Assembly (NCBI GenBank): GCA_024404815.1
Contig: JAKSPL010000013.1
Coordinates: 1 to 49,516 of the forward strand
Direction: 5' to 3'
Source: Oscillospiraceae bacterium
Lineage (GTDB): Bacteria > Bacillota > Clostridia > Oscillospirales > Ruminococcaceae
DNA length: 49,516 nt
The position numbers and the translations under genes are program-made. The notes beneath the pieces were generated by a model. It had not been told where the DNA came from, searched no databases, and was given only the letters and a program-made list of their open reading frames with translations. Below are positions 12,510 through 42,330 of the stretch, piece by piece (the first letter of the stretch is position 1; every line of letters begins with the position of its first letter).

Positions 12510-12848
12510 ATGAATTTGGTCGAACTGAAACAGGAGCCGCAGAAGCTGACGGCCGCGCTCAGCGGAGAACTTGACCACCACCATGCAAAGGAAATACGCG
12601 AAACTGTGGATCTTGCGGTACGGGAGCAGCTTCCGCCGACACTTGTACTGGATTTTACAAAGGTGACGTTTATGGACAGTTCGGGGATCGGGCTGATTAT
12701 CGGACGTTTTCACCTGATGGAGGAATGCGGCGGCGTGCTGGAGATCCACAATCCCTCGCCGCAGATTCGTAAGGTGCTGCGGCTTTCGGGGGCGGACAGG
12801 CTCGCCGTCATTCGGAACCATCTCAGCGGAAAGGCAGAAAAAGCATGA
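12510..12848 (+). CDS. spoIIAA: Anti-sigma F factor antagonist SpoIIAA (STAS domain)
   Basis: A 112-residue single STAS-domain protein. The phosphorylation loop reads FMDSSGIGLIIGR, with the Ser of DSSG matching Ser58 of B. subtilis SpoIIAA. In the forespore the dephosphorylated form binds SpoIIAB and frees sigma F. Its role is assigned by motif plus position directly before spoIIAB and sigF. GAAAGG precedes ATG 12510. The stop overlaps the start of spoIIAB by 4 nt (ATGA), so the pair is translationally coupled. I saw no convincing sigma-H promoter in 12333-12509. Confidence 0.93.
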   Translation: MNLVELKQEPQKLTAALSGELDHHHAKEIRETVDLAVREQLPPTLVLDFTKVTFMDSSGIGLIIGRFHLMEECGGVLEIHNPSPQIRKVLRLSGADRLAVIRNHLSGKAEKA

Positions 12849-13297
12849 AAACACTCAACGAAATCAAATGTACATTCCCTGCACGCTCCGAGAACGAAAG
12901 CTTTGCGCGAACGGTTGTCTGTGCGTTTGCCGCACAGCTTGACCCGACTGTCGAGGAACTTGCAGACCTGCGGACGGCAGTATCCGAGGCGGTGACAAAC
13001 AGTATTGTTCATGCCTATCGTGGTATAGATGGCGGTATGATAGCCATGACGGTGCGGCTTTTGCCTGATGCGGTCATCTATGTGCGGATCGCGGATAAGG
13101 GCTGCGGCATTGCAGATGTCCGAAAGGCAATGGAACCGCTTTATTCGAGTGCGCCTGCGGAGGAACGCGCAGGGCTTGGCTTTACGGTCATGGAGAGCTT
13201 TACGGACAAGTTGTCGGTGCATTCCAAACTCGGCAGCGGAACGACCGTAACAATGCGAAAGAAAATACGGCATGGCACAGAACACGATCGTCATTGA
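12845..13297 (+). CDS. spoIIAB: Anti-sigma F factor SpoIIAB
   Basis: A 150-residue GHKL-ATPase kinase that binds sigma F and phosphorylates SpoIIAA. The N box is LADLRTAVSEAVTNSIVHAY, the G1 box DKGCGIAD and the G2 region RAGLGFTVMESF, ending in GSGTTVTM. Length and order match the family. The 3' end overlaps sigF by 26 nt. The tail KIRHGTEHDRH lies within this overlap. The three-gene order AA-AB-AC is the conserved spoIIA operon. Confidence 0.95.
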   Translation: MKTLNEIKCTFPARSENESFARTVVCAFAAQLDPTVEELADLRTAVSEAVTNSIVHAYRGIDGGMIAMTVRLLPDAVIYVRIADKGCGIADVRKAMEPLYSSAPAEERAGLGFTVMESFTDKLSVHSKLGSGTTVTMRKKIRHGTEHDRH

Positions 13298-13928
13298 GGA
13301 ACATCTGGGACTGGTACATCTGTGCGCGAATCGGTTTCGGAACCGCGGTTTGGAGTATGAAGAACTGTATTCCGCAGGCTGTCTGGGACTGGTCAAAGCG
13401 GCAAAAGCGTTTGATGAAACGAGGGGCGTATGCTTTTCAACCTACGCTGTCCCTGTTATTATGGGCGAGATACGGCGCTTGTTTCGAGATGGCGGAACGG
13501 TGAAAATCGGGCGGCGGCTGAAAGAACAGGCGATGCGTGTGCAACAGGCGGCGGAGTCCCTGCGACAGGAAACGGGCGGTGAGCCGACAGTCCATATGAT
13601 CGCGGAGCGGCTGGGGATATCCGTACAGGAGGCGGCAGAGGCGATTTGTGCGGCACAGCCTGCGGTTTCGCTGACAGCGTATACCGAGGAGGGCGAGGCG
13701 CAGATGGATGTCCCCGTCCCATCGCCCGAAACCGCCTTGCAGGACAAGCTTGCGCTGCGGCAGGTGCTGGCACTCCTGAACGAGCAGGACAGGCTCTTGC
13801 TGCAGCTGCGGTATCAGAAACGCATGACACAGACCGCTGCCGCAAAACAGCTTGGCATGACGCAGGTGCAGGTGTCGCGCCGCGAGAAAAAGCTGCTGCT
13901 GTATCTGCGTGCGGAACTGCTGCGCTGA
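13272..13928 (+). CDS. sigF: RNA polymerase sporulation sigma factor SigF
   Basis: A 218-residue sigma-70 family factor. Region 2 contains LVHLCANRFRNRGLEYEELYSAGCLGLVKA and FSTYAVPVIMGEIRR; regions 3 and 4 follow, ending with TQTAAAKQLGMTQVQVSRREKK as the -35-binding helix-turn-helix. Position third in the spoIIA operon supports sigma F rather than sigma G. It would direct early forespore transcription. The start overlaps spoIIAB by 26 nt and has only a weak GAAAG site, consistent with coupling. The N-terminus is a little shorter than in B. subtilis. Confidence 0.94.
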   Translation: MAQNTIVIEEHLGLVHLCANRFRNRGLEYEELYSAGCLGLVKAAKAFDETRGVCFSTYAVPVIMGEIRRLFRDGGTVKIGRRLKEQAMRVQQAAESLRQETGGEPTVHMIAERLGISVQEAAEAICAAQPAVSLTAYTEEGEAQMDVPVPSPETALQDKLALRQVLALLNEQDRLLLQLRYQKRMTQTAAAKQLGMTQVQVSRREKKLLLYLRAELLR

Positions 13929-15441: not shown

Positions 15442-15508
15442 CCGCGATTTCTGACGCATTGCTTCTGTCGTCTGCGTTTTCCGCATACATTCTGGCGGAG
15501 GGATGCGG

Positions 15509-16837
15509 ATGGAATGGGTGCGCGACTGGCTGTGGCAATGGATTTTGCCGATCGGACTGCTTGTGACAGCGGTCAGATGCGGCTTTGCACAAAAATGGAT
15601 GCCTCTGCGTGATTTTCGAAGAACAATACGAGATACCCTCGGCAGTCTTTCTGCGAAACAGACAGCAGAGGACAGGAAAGAATCTCCCTCACAGCGGCAA
15701 ATTGTAGCGACTGCTCTCGCCGCGGCGATGGGCACAGGCAATCTGATCGGTACAGCGGCAGCGATCGCGGCAGGCGGTGCAGGGGCTATATTCTGGATGT
15801 GGGTGTCCGCTTTGGCAGGCATGCTGCTGGTCTACGCGGAAAATGTGCTGGGCATCCGTTTTCGAAGGAAAACGGCAGACGGTTGGCGCGGCGGCGCAAT
15901 CGCTTGTCTGCGGTATGGTCTGCATATGCCGCTTACCGCGTGGATATTTGCGGTTTGCTGCGCGGCGGCAGGACTTGGCATGGGCAGTATGGCGCAGGCG
16001 AATGCGATCGCGGCGGCGGCAAAGGAATTATCTGTTCCGCCCCCTGCGGCAGGCGTAGTGACTGTTCTGCTTGGCGGCTGGATCTTGTGCGGCGGAACGA
16101 AGAAAATCGGGCGCGTGACCGCTTGGCTGATGCCCCTGCTGTGCGGCATTTATATGCTTGGCTGCGGCTGGCTTCTGGTGTGCCATGCCGAAAGGCTTCC
16201 TGCGGCATTTGCCCGTATTTTTCGGGAAGCGTTCGGATTTCGCGGCATGGCAGGCGGATTTTGCGCGTCCGTGCTGATGCAGAGCCTGCGTGTGGGCATC
16301 TGCCGCGGCATTTTCTCCAATGAAGCAGGACTTGGAAGTTCCGCACTTTTACATATGGAAACCGCAGAATGTGTTCCTGACAGACAGGGCAGATGGGCGG
16401 CGACCGAGGTTTTTCTCGATACGATCGTCTGTTGTACGCTGACCGCGCTGGTCGTCCTGACGGCGTCTGTCCCGACAGAGGGCGCGGACGGTGCATCGCT
16501 TCTCCTTGCAGCATTTGCGGAGAGTTTTGGCACATTTGCCGCGGATTATCTTGCTGTCATGCTGATATTATTCGCATTTGCGACATTTATCGGATGGTAT
16601 CCCTGCGGACTGGCGGCTGCACGCTATGGCTTGCGCGGCGGTGCGGAAATCTATTTGCCGCTGTATCTGCTGATAGGATTTGTGGGGGCACTTGGCGGTG
16701 CAGAACGGATTCTGATGCTCTGTGACTGCCTGAATGCCTGCATGGCGATACCGAATTTACTGGGATTATGGCTGCTGCGCGGTGAACTCGCGGCAGAAAC
16801 GGAAAGGATGCAAAAAAATGAAAATACCGAACGCTGA
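15509..16837 (+). CDS. Sodium:alanine/glycine symporter (AGCS family)
   Basis: About 442 residues and roughly ten membrane segments. AGCS-type blocks are ALAAAMGTGNLIGTAAAI, GAGAIFWMWVSALAGMLLVYAE, GICRGIFSNEAGLGSS and the late helices. The NEAGLGS motif is diagnostic of the sodium:amino acid (alanine) symporter family. ATG 15509 has GGAGGG 6 nt upstream, better than ATG 15503. It lies 67 nt after pepD, so amino acids released by the dipeptidase and this transporter may be linked. The substrate is inferred from the family. Confidence 0.88.
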   Translation: MEWVRDWLWQWILPIGLLVTAVRCGFAQKWMPLRDFRRTIRDTLGSLSAKQTAEDRKESPSQRQIVATALAAAMGTGNLIGTAAAIAAGGAGAIFWMWVSALAGMLLVYAENVLGIRFRRKTADGWRGGAIACLRYGLHMPLTAWIFAVCCAAAGLGMGSMAQANAIAAAAKELSVPPPAAGVVTVLLGGWILCGGTKKIGRVTAWLMPLLCGIYMLGCGWLLVCHAERLPAAFARIFREAFGFRGMAGGFCASVLMQSLRVGICRGIFSNEAGLGSSALLHMETAECVPDRQGRWAATEVFLDTIVCCTLTALVVLTASVPTEGADGASLLLAAFAESFGTFAADYLAVMLILFAFATFIGWYPCGLAAARYGLRGGAEIYLPLYLLIGFVGALGGAERILMLCDCLNACMAIPNLLGLWLLRGELAAETERMQKNENTER

Positions 16838-17060
16838 CTCGCTGGACGGAGCGCAGAAATTTGTAACGATTCTGAATCTGATCGTATTTCTGGTCGTGTT
16901 CCTCGGATTATATCTGATCGTGCGGCAATATGTACACAATCTGTTTTTGCGGATCCTGTGTCTGGCGGCGGATTATTTTATCACATCGCTTTTGGTCTAT
17001 TGTGTGATACGTCCGTTGTCGGACAAAGCGGCAGACGCTTTGCGGCAGATGAAAAAATGA
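16818..17060 (+). CDS. Small two-helix membrane protein, unknown
   Basis: An 80-residue protein starting at ATG 16818 after GGAAAGGA. Two hydrophobic stretches (about 15-35 and 43-65) suggest two membrane helices with a charged C-terminus. It overlaps the 3' end of the AGCS gene by 20 nt, so it is probably co-translated and might be an accessory part of that transporter. No family recognised. Confidence 0.65.
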   Translation: MKIPNADSLDGAQKFVTILNLIVFLVVFLGLYLIVRQYVHNLFLRILCLAADYFITSLLVYCVIRPLSDKAADALRQMKK

Positions 17061-17098: not shown

Positions 17099-17127
17099 TT
17101 GATGAAACTGTATCTATTTGGTATAAT
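17099..17127 (+). promoter_or_regulatory. Sigma-A-like promoter before the spo0A homologue
   Basis: TTGATG (17099-17104), 17-nt spacer, TATAAT (17122-17127), 75 nt before ATG 17203. No clear 0A box or sigma-H site was seen. Confidence 0.7.
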
Positions 17128-17202: not shown

Positions 17203-17862
17203 ATGGAACAAATTGTAAAAATTCTAATCGGAGATGACGGAAGTCCATTTTCCGTCACATTGGCACAGAAATTGCGTGAATTCGGATTTTATGCGGTTAC
17301 CAGACTGCAAAAAGCCGCAGCACTTCAACAGGCAATTCGAAAAGAGATGCCTGATGTCCTGCTGTTGGATCTATCCAATCTGGCGGCAGAGGAACTGTGT
17401 GAGATCATGGAACTGGTGCGCGGAAACAGGATACAGACTGCTGTGATACTGCCGCGTGAAAACACCATGCTGCAGCGGCAACTGATGAAAACCGGAATTC
17501 GCATCTGTTTGACAAAGCCGCTGGATGCCGCAAGACTGGCGGATGAGATCAAGCGGTACTATCCGAAAAAAGCGGAGCAGCCGAAGCCTGCTGCGGTGCC
17601 GGAAGTGAAACAGACGGCAGAATTGCCGCTGACAGAGTCACCGACGCCGGAATATACGGTTGCGGCGATGATGCAGCGGTTGGGGATCCCTGCGAATTTG
17701 CAGGGGTATCAATATCTCCGCGAGGCGATTCTTGCCGTGTATGTGCAGCCGCAGCTGACATACAGCGTCACAAAAAAACTGTATCCACTTGTGGCAAATC
17801 ATTTCGAAACAACACCTTCCAGAGTGGAACGGTCGATTCGCCATGCGATTGACCTGGCGTAG
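17203..17862 (+). CDS. spo0A: Truncated Spo0A homologue with degenerate receiver domain
   Basis: The frame reads 219 residues and then TAG. The C-terminal part (about 150-219) is clearly the Spo0A DNA-binding domain: LGIPANLQGYQYLREAILAVY, VTKKLYPLVANHF, TTPSRVERSIRHAIDLA. The stop falls where Spo0A normally has Trp (AIEVAWxRG), and the same frame continues for 47 codons into a Spo0A-like tail. The receiver keeps the acidic pair D11 D12, D56 (LLLDLSNL) and K105, but has Pro84 where Thr/Ser is expected and lacks the MP-x-x-DG loop, so phosphorylation is doubtful. AGGAGC lies upstream of ATG 17203. As read, the product lacks the end of the effector domain and is probably non-functional unless the amber codon is read through or is an error. 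Confidence 0.85.
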   Translation: MEQIVKILIGDDGSPFSVTLAQKLREFGFYAVTRLQKAAALQQAIRKEMPDVLLLDLSNLAAEELCEIMELVRGNRIQTAVILPRENTMLQRQLMKTGIRICLTKPLDAARLADEIKRYYPKKAEQPKPAAVPEVKQTAELPLTESPTPEYTVAAMMQRLGIPANLQGYQYLREAILAVYVQPQLTYSVTKKLYPLVANHFETTPSRVERSIRHAIDLA

Positions 17863-18003
17863 GAGCGCGGCGCAGGGGAACAGCCGCCGTTGGAATATCT
17901 TGGGATACCGCTTCCTGTATTCCGAAAGAAACCGACGAACTCCGAGCTGATCGCATTGATCGCGGACCAGCTTCGGGTGTTGCAGCCGACCTATCTGAAA
18001 TAA
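17863..18003 (+). pseudogene. spo0A: Severed C-terminal tail of spo0A, in frame after TAG
   Basis: Directly after TAG 17860-17862, the same frame is open for 47 codons to TAA 18001-18003. It includes KPTNSELIALIADQL, the near-invariant end of Spo0A (KPTNSEFIAxxADKLR). Joined through the stop the protein would be 266 residues, the usual Spo0A length. A single G-to-A change of TGG to TAG explains the break. Confidence 0.85.
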
Positions 18004-18009
18004 ACAAAA

Positions 18010-18052
18010 AAGCGCAGAACGATGGGACTGAACATCGTTCTGCGCTTCTTTT
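18010..18052 (+). terminator. Terminator after spo0A, duplicated at 18246
   Basis: AAGCGCAGAACGAT (18010-18023) and ATCGTTCTGCGCTT (18034-18047) form a 14-bp stem with loop GGGACTGAAC and then TCTTTT. The same sequence, loop included, recurs at 18246-18285 with one mismatch. Confidence 0.85.
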
Positions 18053-18084
18053 GTCGATCAAGTACGCTGACCAATCCTCTTATG

Positions 18085-18235
18085 AAAAGTTTTGGTCAAG
18101 CTTTTCCAAAAGCTTGCAGGGTTCGAAGGGGCGGCGCCCCTCGCCGCGCTCCGCAGAGCGCGGAACACCCCCTCCTTCCAAAAGGTCAGGAGGGGGAATG
18201 GGGGAACCCTACCAAGGGGTTCCCCCATATCTTTT
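18085..18235 (+). repeat. Dispersed palindromic intergenic repeat, copy 2
   Basis: Chain of palindromes: AAGCTTTTCC/AAAAGCTT, GGGGCGGCGCCCC, CGCGCTCCGCAGAGCGCG, CCCCCTCCT/AGGAGGGGG and GGGGGAACCC/GGGGTTCCCCC. The same order occurs at 42180-42330 (same strand) and 23485-23710 (opposite strand). Frames running through it are artefacts of the repeat. Confidence 0.8.
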
Positions 18236-18245
18236 TGACATACGA

Positions 18246-18285
18246 AAGCGCAGAACGATGGGACTGAACACCGTTCTGCGCTTTT
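18246..18285 (-). terminator. Second copy of the duplicated terminator hairpin
   Basis: AAGCGCAGAACGAT...ACCGTTCTGCGCTTTT repeats the 18010 hairpin. It stands immediately after the stop (18294) of the convergent PIN/NYN gene and can terminate that transcript on the minus strand. The repeat at 18085-18235 lies between the two copies. Confidence 0.75.
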
Positions 18286-18293
18286 GTGTAGAA

Positions 18294-18977
18294 TCAGTAA
18301 CCTGCGGCAGCAAAAAACGGCTTCATCATACGGTAGTAATCTTTGGAGTCGTCATTGTCAAAGAATTGCTGCAAGGCGTTGTGGAATTCTGTCTTGCTGT
18401 GGCTCTGGAGCAGACAGTCCAGGATACGCTGTGCGTTTTCCTCGCTGATGTTGGGCACCAGCGCGAGCACATCAGAAATGCCGATGCGTGCTGTTTCGAT
18501 GGCAGGCGTCATCGTTTCCGGCTGCTTCTGTGTTTTCACGGCGGTCACGTTCATCGGCTGCACCTGAATCACGGTCTTGCGCTTCCGCACGCTGACGGAG
18601 GCGGATTTTCCGTTCAGCGTCGATTGGATGGAAGGACGAAGCTGAACCTTGGTTTTCAGGTGTTCCTTGCAGAATGCTGCGACTGCGGAGAAACCGCTGT
18701 CTTTGCTGATGATGAAGTATTCGTCTGCTTCATGGTTGGCAATCAGACAGCCGAGCAGGGTGGAAAGCTGGAAATCCAGCGCATTTTTGCCCGATTGTGC
18801 AATACAGATGCGTTCGGGCATGACCTTTCCGCTGAGCATTTCGTCCATCACTTCGAACGAAAGCGTGTTGGCGGAATGGCTGTAAAAGAGGATGACGCGG
18901 TCATGGGACGGAAGCTGTCCGATGCCGCATAAACCTGCGGAATTGACGTTTTCATAGTCAATGAGATAGAGTCGCAT
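18294..18977 (-). CDS. PIN/NYN-like nuclease-domain protein
   Basis: A 227-residue protein. The N-terminal half (1 to about 115) looks like a PIN/NYN ribonuclease fold: RLYLIDYENVN supplies the first acidic residues, NALDFQLSTLLG the middle Asp, and YFIISKDSGFSAV the third conserved KD-x-G-F site. The rest is basic and low in recognisable features until a helical C-terminus (about 150-225). A role in RNA cleavage is inferred from the family. ATG 18977 is 9 nt after GAAAGG; ATG 18983 would be too close. It is 13 nt downstream of the lipid kinase gene. Confidence 0.75.
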   Translation of the reverse strand: MRLYLIDYENVNSAGLCGIGQLPSHDRVILFYSHSANTLSFEVMDEMLSGKVMPERICIAQSGKNALDFQLSTLLGCLIANHEADEYFIISKDSGFSAVAAFCKEHLKTKVQLRPSIQSTLNGKSASVSVRKRKTVIQVQPMNVTAVKTQKQPETMTPAIETARIGISDVLALVPNISEENAQRILDCLLQSHSKTEFHNALQQFFDNDDSKDYYRMMKPFFAAAGY

Positions 18978-18990
18978 AATCATAATCCTT

Positions 18991-19950
18991 TCAGAGATTT
19001 GATGCACTGCGCTCCTGCGAATCAATTTCATTGGATTCGGTGTTGTAGGGACCGTTTTCACCCACACAGAATGTGATGGCACGATTGAGATTGTGGACTT
19101 CGCTGTATGTGGAACTGCCGCCGTATTCTCCGTCGAGCGTCCACGGGATCTCCTCCTCGGAGAAAAAGCGGATGCTGTTTGTACGGAAATACAGGACATG
19201 GTTGGTATCAATGTCCTCCTCAATATTCATCAAAGAAGTAATGATACGCTGGAGTTCCACAGGATTCGAAGGTTTCCGAATCAGCATGACTTCGAAAGTA
19301 CCATCGTCCAGCATGAAGTTTTTGAGTTTCAGCAGACCTGCAACCGAAGCGGTATTGCTGACCATGCCGTAAATAAAGTCGTCTTCGATCGTATTGCCTT
19401 CGTATTCGATTTTCATATGGAGCGGTCGAATGGTATTCAGCTTCGAAATACCGTGCAGAATATATGCCATATGACCGATGACATTCTTGACATTCTGCGG
19501 TGTTTCGTAGACAGTCGATGTGAAAGCACCGAATGCGGCAACATAGAGGAAATAGCTGGAATTGAACGCACCGACATCACAGGTGAACAGATGCGGATTG
19601 GTCAGCATCCAGCTTGCAGCGTCCTCGATGTCCGAGGGAATGCAAAGACCTTTTGCAAAGTCGTTGGTCGAACCGCAGGGGATATAGCCCAGCGGAAGCG
19701 GCGATTGGCTGTGTACCAGTCCCTGCACAGCCTCATTGAGTGTGCCGTCTCCGCCCGAACAGACTATCATATCAAATTTCCCGCTCAGACAGGCATATTC
19801 AGCCGCCGCACAAGCATCCATACGAGCCTGCGTGGTACGGACGGTGACTTCATAGCCTGCAGCGGTAAACGAGTCGATCACAGCAGCAATTTTGCTGCGG
19901 ATCGCGCTTTTTCCCGATTGCAGATTCGTGATGAAATAGAGCTTTTTCAT
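18991..19950 (-). CDS. Diacylglycerol/lipid kinase family protein (DagK/YegS/BmrU type)
   Basis: A 319-residue cytosolic lipid kinase-like protein. The N-terminal nucleotide-binding domain has CSGGDGTLNEAVQGL, the family's GGDGT signature, and PLGYIPCGSTNDFAKGL. The C-terminal beta-sandwich ends with PWTLDGEYGG, which matches the DGE motif. It probably phosphorylates diacylglycerol or a related lipid; paralogues vary in substrate. ATG 19950 follows GGAAGC. It is the first gene of a two-gene minus-strand transcript with the PIN/NYN protein. Confidence 0.9.
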   Translation of the reverse strand: MKKLYFITNLQSGKSAIRSKIAAVIDSFTAAGYEVTVRTTQARMDACAAAEYACLSGKFDMIVCSGGDGTLNEAVQGLVHSQSPLPLGYIPCGSTNDFAKGLCIPSDIEDAASWMLTNPHLFTCDVGAFNSSYFLYVAAFGAFTSTVYETPQNVKNVIGHMAYILHGISKLNTIRPLHMKIEYEGNTIEDDFIYGMVSNTASVAGLLKLKNFMLDDGTFEVMLIRKPSNPVELQRIITSLMNIEEDIDTNHVLYFRTNSIRFFSEEEIPWTLDGEYGGSSTYSEVHNLNRAITFCVGENGPYNTESNEIDSQERSASNL

Positions 19951-23484: not shown

Positions 23485-23710
23485 ATGGGGGAACCCCTTG
23501 ATAGCGTACACGGTATGCTTCGCATACCTACGAGAAACTGCGTTTCTCGCCCCAAGCCCCCTCCTGATCTTTTGAAAGGAGGGGGTATTTCGCGCTCTGC
23601 GGAGCGCGATGAGGGGAGCAGTACGGCAAGCCGATGAGTTTGCAAGCAAACTCACCCCCTCAACCCCTGCGATTTTTCGAGAAAAATCGAGTAAAGCTTT
23701 TGATATGAGA
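23485..23710 (-). repeat. Dispersed palindromic intergenic repeat, copy 3 (inverted)
   Basis: Read on the minus strand it has the order of copies at 18.1 and 42.2 kb: AAAGCTT-type arm, CGCGCTCCGCAGAGCGCG, CCCCCTCCT/AGGAGGGGG and GGGGTTCCCCC. Extra small hairpins are inserted: GAGAAACGCAGTTTCTC, GGTATGCGAAGCATACC and GAGTTTGCTTGCAAACTC. The gene-free stretch 23416-23869 holds this, the serS terminator and the two palindromes below. Confidence 0.75.
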
Positions 23711-34133: not shown

Positions 34134-34183
34134 TTTCAGGTATCGTGATGCTTTCGCGTGAGCCGCATGGTTCATGCCGCATC

Positions 34184-34283
34184 AGAGTAGAAAATTTCGC
34201 GTTAAGTGTCGGCTGGACGGGGAGTTGTCAGCTGAACGAAAAGCAGTTTTGCTTGCGGTGAAATTTTCGCATCCCGCTGACGC
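34184..34283 (+). ncRNA. Tetrahydrofolate (THF) riboswitch
   Basis: AGAGTAG...CGCGTTAAGTGTC, a GGGAGTTGTCAGCTGAACGA-type core and GGTGAAATTTTCGCATCCCGC reproduce the THF-riboswitch consensus (GAGAGUAG, CGUUAAGUG, GUUGUC...AACGA, GCGGUGAA, GCAUCCCGCU). The arm AAAATTTCGC pairs with GGTGAAATTTT, and GTCGGCTG...CAGCTGAAC forms an inner hairpin. The gene downstream is a folate ECF transporter component, the usual target. No promoter was seen in 34134-34184, so it may be transcribed from the pfkA promoter. Confidence 0.9.
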
Positions 34284-42165: not shown

Positions 42166-42179
42166 AAGCGCAACAAAAG

Positions 42180-42330
42180 TTTCGGTCAAGCCTTTTCAAA
42201 GGCTTGCGGGTTCTTAGGGCAGAGCCCTAAGTCGCGCTCCGCAGAGCGCGAAACACCTTTCTCGTCCAAACAAATCAGGATGGGGGGCATGGGGGGAAAC
42301 CCTATTAAGGGGGTTCCCCCCATACAAGAG
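42180..42330 (+). repeat. Dispersed palindromic repeat, copy 5b (like 18085-18235)
   Basis: GGTCAAGCCTTTTCAAAGGCTTGC, TAGGGCAGAGCCCTA, CGCGCTCCGCAGAGCGCG and GGGGGGAAACCC/GGGGGTTCCCCCC follow the same order as the 18-kb copy, with arms changed but pairing kept, which argues for selection on structure. Confidence 0.8.

Follow-up and report, generated by a model that had tools for sequence, protein, structure and literature searches.

An in-frame amber codon within a divergent Spo0A paralogue of an Oscillospiraceae draft genome that carries an intact canonical spo0A

Organization of the locus

The window analysed here is the whole stretch of 49,516 nucleotides from an Oscillospiraceae draft genome (own genome, G000; 1.97 Mb in 59 contigs, 84% complete), and it contains a Spo0A-like gene whose reading frame is interrupted by a TAG codon between a sporulation operon and a diacylglycerol-kinase family gene (Table 1). 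The putative promoter and the terminator-like hairpin flank the frame that ends at TAA, so that the transcription unit appears to be arranged for the full-length frame; both are consensus matches from a region with 4 promoter-like and 6 terminator-like sites against 1.5 and 1.7, respectively, expected from shuffled sequence. The 0A-box motif TGTCGAA occurred nine times in the window against 9.4 expected, with no copy directly upstream of the Spo0A-like gene.

Table 1. Features of the locus around the interrupted Spo0A-like gene (window coordinates)
Feature	Position	Strand	Remarks
spoIIAA-spoIIAB-sigF	12510..13928	+	uninterrupted; ~3.3 kb upstream of paralogue
alsT-type sodium:alanine symporter	15503..16837	+	synteny marker
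small ORF	16818..17060	+	no Pfam match; synteny marker
sigma-70-like promoter, TTGATG-17-TATAAT	17099..17127	+	10/12 matches, by consensus only; possible own promoter of paralogue
Spo0A-like paralogue, open part	17203..17862	+	219 aa, ATG 17203 to TAG; divergent receiver (~1-120), linker, first two thirds of Spo0A_C
in-frame TAG	17860..17862	+	Trp at the aligned site in all 27 canonical rows of the genus and in 20/27 full-length paralogues
Spo0A tail KPTNSELIALIADQL	17863..18003	+	frame of the gene continues for 46 codons to TAA 18001-18003
terminator-like hairpin, 15 pairs	18010..18047	+	directly 3' of TAA, i.e. of the full-length frame; consensus match only
NYN-like protein (Pfam PIN7)	18294..18977	-	synteny marker, 3' side
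diacylglycerol-kinase family protein (dagK)	18991..19950	-	synteny marker

Coding sequence on both sides of the amber codon

The open part of the gene encodes a product with the C-terminal residues SRVERSIRHAIDLA directly before TAG, and the codons that follow the TAG translate as ERGAGEQPPLEYLGIPLPVFRKKPTNSELIALIADQLRVLQPTYLK. The open part alone matched the Spo0A_C family (PF08769) at 81 bits (cut-off 25) through residues 154-218, corresponding to positions 2-66 of the 104-position profile, and a match across the TAG reached 105.6 bits over the entire profile (1-104/104) with exactly one stop inside. Neither a further stop nor a frame-breaking gap was found before or after the TAG. As coding sequence the post-TAG tail scored +0.15 per codon in the frame of the gene and below zero in each of the other five, and 27 of 45 of its residues were identical to those of the orthologue in genome G013. 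The coding tail behind the TAG is not a product of chance.

A sequence-only reading of this DNA had described an amber codon at a conserved Trp, followed by 47 open codons with the characteristic tail of the family. The in-frame amber codon at this position is present in the assembled sequence with the Spo0A_C match spanning it, and the family-type tail was borne out by the match to the last profile position and by the identity to the orthologue. The frame is open to TAA as described, but it holds 46 codons, and the Trp, invariant among canonical proteins, is replaced by another residue in 7 of 27 full-length paralogues and is not strictly required at this site.

A canonical spo0A on another contig

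The same reading had regarded the interrupted gene as the spo0A of its genome and the stop as crippling the master switch of sporulation. Neither claim is supported in view of a second Spo0A_C match of the same draft genome, located on contig C15, which is open and canonical and scored 153.2 bits against 105.6 bits for the window copy. The alternative named in that reading, an intact second spo0A with the window gene as a relic paralogue, was encountered in this C15 copy, and loss of the master switch is rejected because the intact canonical gene exists. Against the NCBIfam Spo0A equivalog TIGR02875 (cut-off 200 bits), the canonical C15 copy scored 264.5 bits, while the intact orthologue from G013 (148.9) and the window open part (106.3) both fell below the cut-off. 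Phylogenetic analysis placed 27 canonical rows on one side of a branch with 100/99 support, and the window gene formed a clade of its own with the G013 paralogue (100/100) apart from the canonical rows; the tree tool warned of long branches, and the deep placement of the paralogues is unsure. The window gene is a divergent paralogue of Spo0A and not the master regulator.

Spo0A_C proteins across the genus

Our survey of 30 genomes of the genus identified Spo0A_C matches in 28 genomes with 80 rows in total. By reading of the resulting table, 28 rows were canonical, in 27 genomes (one genome having a second, partial row), and 52 were non-canonical, in 26 genomes with one to three such rows each. 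G025 had a non-canonical row only, G018 and G021 had canonical rows only and G019 and G022 had no Spo0A_C row, so that four of the 30 genomes, several of them incomplete drafts, had no non-canonical Spo0A_C protein. Many of the Spo0A_C proteins of the genus lie in short frames, down to ~105-204 residues (e.g. loci L036-L044 and L052-L071).

Residues were compared in the window gene, in 27 canonical rows and in an equal number of full-length paralogues; the counts leave out 24 non-canonical rows that were short or partial, four of which entered the alignment, and the extra canonical row of G001. The phosphoacceptor Asp was kept in all 27 canonical rows compared with 7 of 27 paralogue rows, where it was often replaced by Asn (16 rows), and the receiver Lys was kept in 27/27 and 4/27, respectively; G005parB, G024par and G024parB align poorly in the receiver and their single entries are unsure. 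The window receiver retains the acidic pair DD11-12, the phosphoacceptor Asp56 and Lys105 and has lost the Thr/Ser position (Ile-Leu); it matched Response_reg at 27.1 bits, below the cut-off of 30.2.

A stop inside the Spo0A_C match was found in the window row only (1/80), and an amber codon shared across the lineage is therefore rejected. In the wider family, with 100 genomes searched, two Spo0A_C rows out of 36 had a stop inside, namely the window gene and one from G056, a 99% complete genome of another genus. The latter is a canonical-type Spo0A with the TAG in its receiver (L132, around 2045-2779), and this different place indicates that the stop is not a shared feature. Another Spo0A_C match of G056, on contig C95, is split over two frames, and this genome possibly represents a lineage that is losing sporulation.

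Orthologue, synteny and rate of sequence change

The orthologue in G013, a near relative, is intact with 252 residues and has Trp at the equivalent of 17860-17862, and its locus shares with the window the order spoIIAA-AB-sigF, alsT, small ORF, paralogue, NYN-like/PIN7 and dagK. This G013 locus is identical over the paralogue to that of MAG RGIG6435 from sheep rectum, and the window and G013 paralogues are about 60-64% identical over their common part. The window gene thus has an intact syntenic orthologue and, in the assembled sequence, a single disabling change, as would be expected of a nonsense pseudogene.

More diverged paralogues were found between alsT and NYN-dagK in G012 and adjoining the small ORF and pepD in G024. 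The L101 locus (MAG SIG542) retains alsT, the small ORF, NYN and dagK and has ~120 bp at the paralogue site, an empty site in which no paralogue or visible remnant was seen between the flanking genes. Of 22 named loci found via the NYN neighbour, the paralogue adjoins NYN in two (L100, from G013, and L102, from G012); at least one of the other 20, L106, has fewer than 400 bases on the paralogue side and is not a clean absence. The absence at L101 and the occurrence in 2 of 22 NYN loci indicate a lineage-specific gene that relatives may lack.

Between G000 and G013, the canonical Spo0A gene showed pN of 0.013 and pS of 0.571, compared with pN of 0.237 and pS of 0.663 for the paralogue before the TAG and pN of 0.255 and pS of 0.603 after it. 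Before the TAG, the pN/pS ratio was 0.36 for the whole sequence and 0.25 for the retained portion of the DNA-binding domain. By these values the paralogue evolves fast, and it looks dispensable from the four genus genomes without a non-canonical Spo0A_C protein and from the empty site at L101. The tail is as divergent as the sequence before the TAG, where 53% of 46-codon windows were at least as divergent, which argues that the stop is young relative to the split of G000 and G013 or is not real; synonymous sites are near saturation in this comparison and bound the age of the stop loosely.

Effect of the stop and its probable origin

In alignments to the DNA-binding domain structures 1FC3 and 1LQ1, the Trp at the TAG site ends the stretch RVER-IRHAI--AW, which we take to be the recognition helix. 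A 219-residue product would keep the helix-turn-helix and lose 38 of 104 Spo0A_C profile positions, a segment that in Spo0A presumably packs the domain and contacts RNA polymerase. The effect of the truncation is argued from these alignments and from known structures.

The presence of an intact canonical spo0A elsewhere and of a fast-changing spare copy in the window suggests that the TAG most likely stems from a sequence error or from a recent gene loss of an ordinary kind. We favour a real and recent loss-of-function change in a divergent, dispensable paralogue with the canonical copy in charge, and assign this reading a probability of somewhat more than one half (about 0.56). According to this reading, a nonsense codon would have arisen in the lineage of G000 where the DNA-recognition helix of a spare Spo0A paralogue ends, a 219-residue protein would be made without the last 46 residues, and the gene would most likely be a young pseudogene that leaves sporulation control to the canonical spo0A on the other contig. 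The paralogy, the intact canonical copy and orthologue, the empty site in a relative and the gene-like tail are observed, and from them we infer that the living strain has the stop, that the change is recent and that function has been lost. Two observations count against the young pseudogene: the frame is clean on both sides of the TAG, as it would be too if a functional gene carried an error, and 2 of the 57 release-factor matches from drafts of the genus contain an in-frame stop.

Alternatively, the paralogue may be intact in the population, and the TAG may have entered this metagenome assembly through an error of sequencing or consensus calling or from a minor strain variant. We consider this a serious rival to a real nonsense change and a tangible possibility, albeit one that we do not favour. 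The two release-factor stops just mentioned, each single, are an in-frame TGA in the RF1 gene of G012 (L154), at a site that is otherwise basic (25 Lys and one Arg among 26 further RF1 loci), and an in-frame TAG in the RF2 gene of G010 (L183), where three other RF2-type loci have Lys. RF1 and RF2 should be essential, and these stops are therefore unlikely to be true null alleles, so that stops that are false or stem from minor variants appear to occur in such drafts; the RF1 gene is interrupted by a codon that RF2 reads, and vice versa. Overall, the five families searched for in the genus gave 242 rows, of which 3, the window included, have an in-frame stop (Spo0A_C 80, SpoIVA 27, GPR 52, SASP 26 and RF1/RF2 57 rows, some genes giving two rows). 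That the post-TAG tail is as conserved as the part before the TAG also agrees with an error. However, the two release-factor stops lie in genomes other than G000, and a crude scan of 359 kb of the latter gave 49 stops flanked by coding-like sequence, among which only the window TAG looked like a split gene, as judged by eye for all 49 places. This scarcity of split genes mildly favours a real stop. No paper on false stops in metagenome assemblies was found in our literature search.

A third reading, that the 219-residue product is functional as a receiver and helix-turn-helix protein lacking the activating tail and that it competes or cooperates with canonical Spo0A, appears improbable. The clean frame before the TAG and its pN/pS ratios would agree with it, as would the promoter-like and terminator-like sites and the many short or receiver-degenerate Spo0A_C proteins in the genus. 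Yet the stop is limited to one genome and to one of the 80 Spo0A_C rows, the selection observed is largely older than the stop, and the tail is without decay.

A broader hypothesis extends from this gene to its relatives. Ruminant-gut Ruminococcus-type bacteria might maintain a standing set of fast-evolving Spo0A-like DNA-binding proteins beside canonical Spo0A, most of which have lost the phosphoacceptor Asp and would act as phosphorylation-independent modulators or competitors at Spo0A target sites; truncated right behind its recognition helix, the window copy would then represent an extreme form that binds without activating. We regard this as speculative and rather unlikely. If Spo0A-like paralogues did act on Spo0A sites, they would constitute an unstudied layer of sporulation control in common gut bacteria. 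For the genome that carries it, the interrupted gene is of little consequence since the sporulation switch is intact, and its value lies more in being a warning and a lead.

Stop codon usage and amber decoding

The sequence-only reading had also suggested that the amber codon might be suppressed or decoded, which would yield a full-length paralogue. We consider this highly improbable. TAG is rare in G000, ending 6 of 233 genes called in 359 kb (the window paralogue not being among them), and RF1, present in 27 of 30 genomes of the genus, was not found in the assembled part of this 84% complete genome, which speaks weakly for decoding. However, TAG is similarly rare in relatives (8/196 and 8/157 genes, in sets drawn partly from the same genomes), where RF1 is nearly universal. 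Two other genomes likewise gave no RF1 match above the cut-off, as expected of incomplete drafts: G019 (77% complete) had none, and G028 (82%) had fragments below the cut-off only. TAG serves as an ordinary terminator in G000, as in the gene that immediately precedes spoIVA (L151, 1716-3255), and also occurs as a tandem TAGTAG. The six TAG-ended genes had no clear coding-like run-on, the top downstream score being +1.8 over 14 codons.

The 28 tRNAs found (27 by ARAGORN, one by eye) include no CTA anticodon; no tRNA-Trp was found either, and the tRNA list of this genome is therefore incomplete. No PylS match over the cut-off was obtained, which speaks against pyrrolysine at the TAG, and stop usage like that of the relatives speaks against an amber-recoded genome.

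Sporulation status

The claim that spoIIAA, spoIIAB and sigF near the interrupted gene look intact held in that all three are open, with spoIIAB above its equivalog cut-off and spoIIAA (93.5 of 114.75 bits) and sigF (187 of 321.45) below theirs. The suggestion that sporulation is being lost, with the window stop as the first lesion, is not supported given that canonical spo0A, spoIVA and gpr and the spoIIAA-AB-sigF genes are present and open, even though no SASP match was found in the 84% complete assembly. SASP matches are also missing from G005, G012 and G026, which are incomplete drafts with canonical spo0A. Within the genus, SpoIVA was found in 26, GPR in 26 and SASP in 24 of 30 genomes. 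G019 and G022 lack any Spo0A_C, SpoIVA, GPR or SASP match, which would agree with sporulation loss and makes it probable that such loss has occurred in other members of the genus, though none is visible in G000. One of these two genomes is 96% complete.

Relation to known systems

The window gene resembles Spo0A (TIGR02875; PF08769) in its layout of receiver and Spo0A_C domain and in keeping the acidic pair, the phosphoacceptor Asp56 and Lys105, and the alignment of its G013 orthologue with the solved structures 1FC3 and 1LQ1 covers almost all of their DNA-binding domain. It differs from Spo0A in scoring below the equivalog and receiver Pfam cut-offs, in the Thr/Ser replacement by Ile-Leu, in its fast evolution and non-canonical placement and in the TAG interruption. 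Response regulators with atypical or pseudo-receivers form another class for comparison. The paralogues of the genus resemble this class, being mostly without the Asp and the Lys, whereas the window copy still has both.

Non-sporulating variants of Clostridioides difficile ribotype 078 carry premature spo0A stops, one of them at codons 162 and 227 (PMC6757067). They are comparable to the window gene in having a stop in a Spo0A-type gene, in one case near the same place of the domain, but differ in that the spo0A that drives sporulation was hit there, whereas here a paralogue was hit and the canonical gene is intact. In other studies, Spo0A_C is taken as unique to Spo0A (PMC6136694), R. bromii is described as forming endospores with the key regulator Spo0A named in the singular (PMC5814915), and Spo0A-positive non-spore-formers are reported to exist (PMC3533761); the passages of PMC9871927 consulted mention no Spo0A paralogue. 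Within the portion of the open-access literature covered, which falls short of a full survey, no description of Spo0A paralogues in this bacterial group was found.

Other elements of the window

A dispersed repeat of ~150 bases lies 3' of the paralogue at 18082-18235, with further copies near 23550-23619 and 42175-42320 of the window and at six more loci of the same genome (L140, L142, L144, L146, L147 and L149). The copy beside the paralogue sits between two terminator hairpin copies (18009-18057 and 18245-18292) that are 92% alike, and since G013 has one hairpin copy only, this arrangement resembles an insertion accompanied by a duplication. A tetrahydrofolate riboswitch was identified on the forward strand at 34181-34281 with a score of 94.5 bits.
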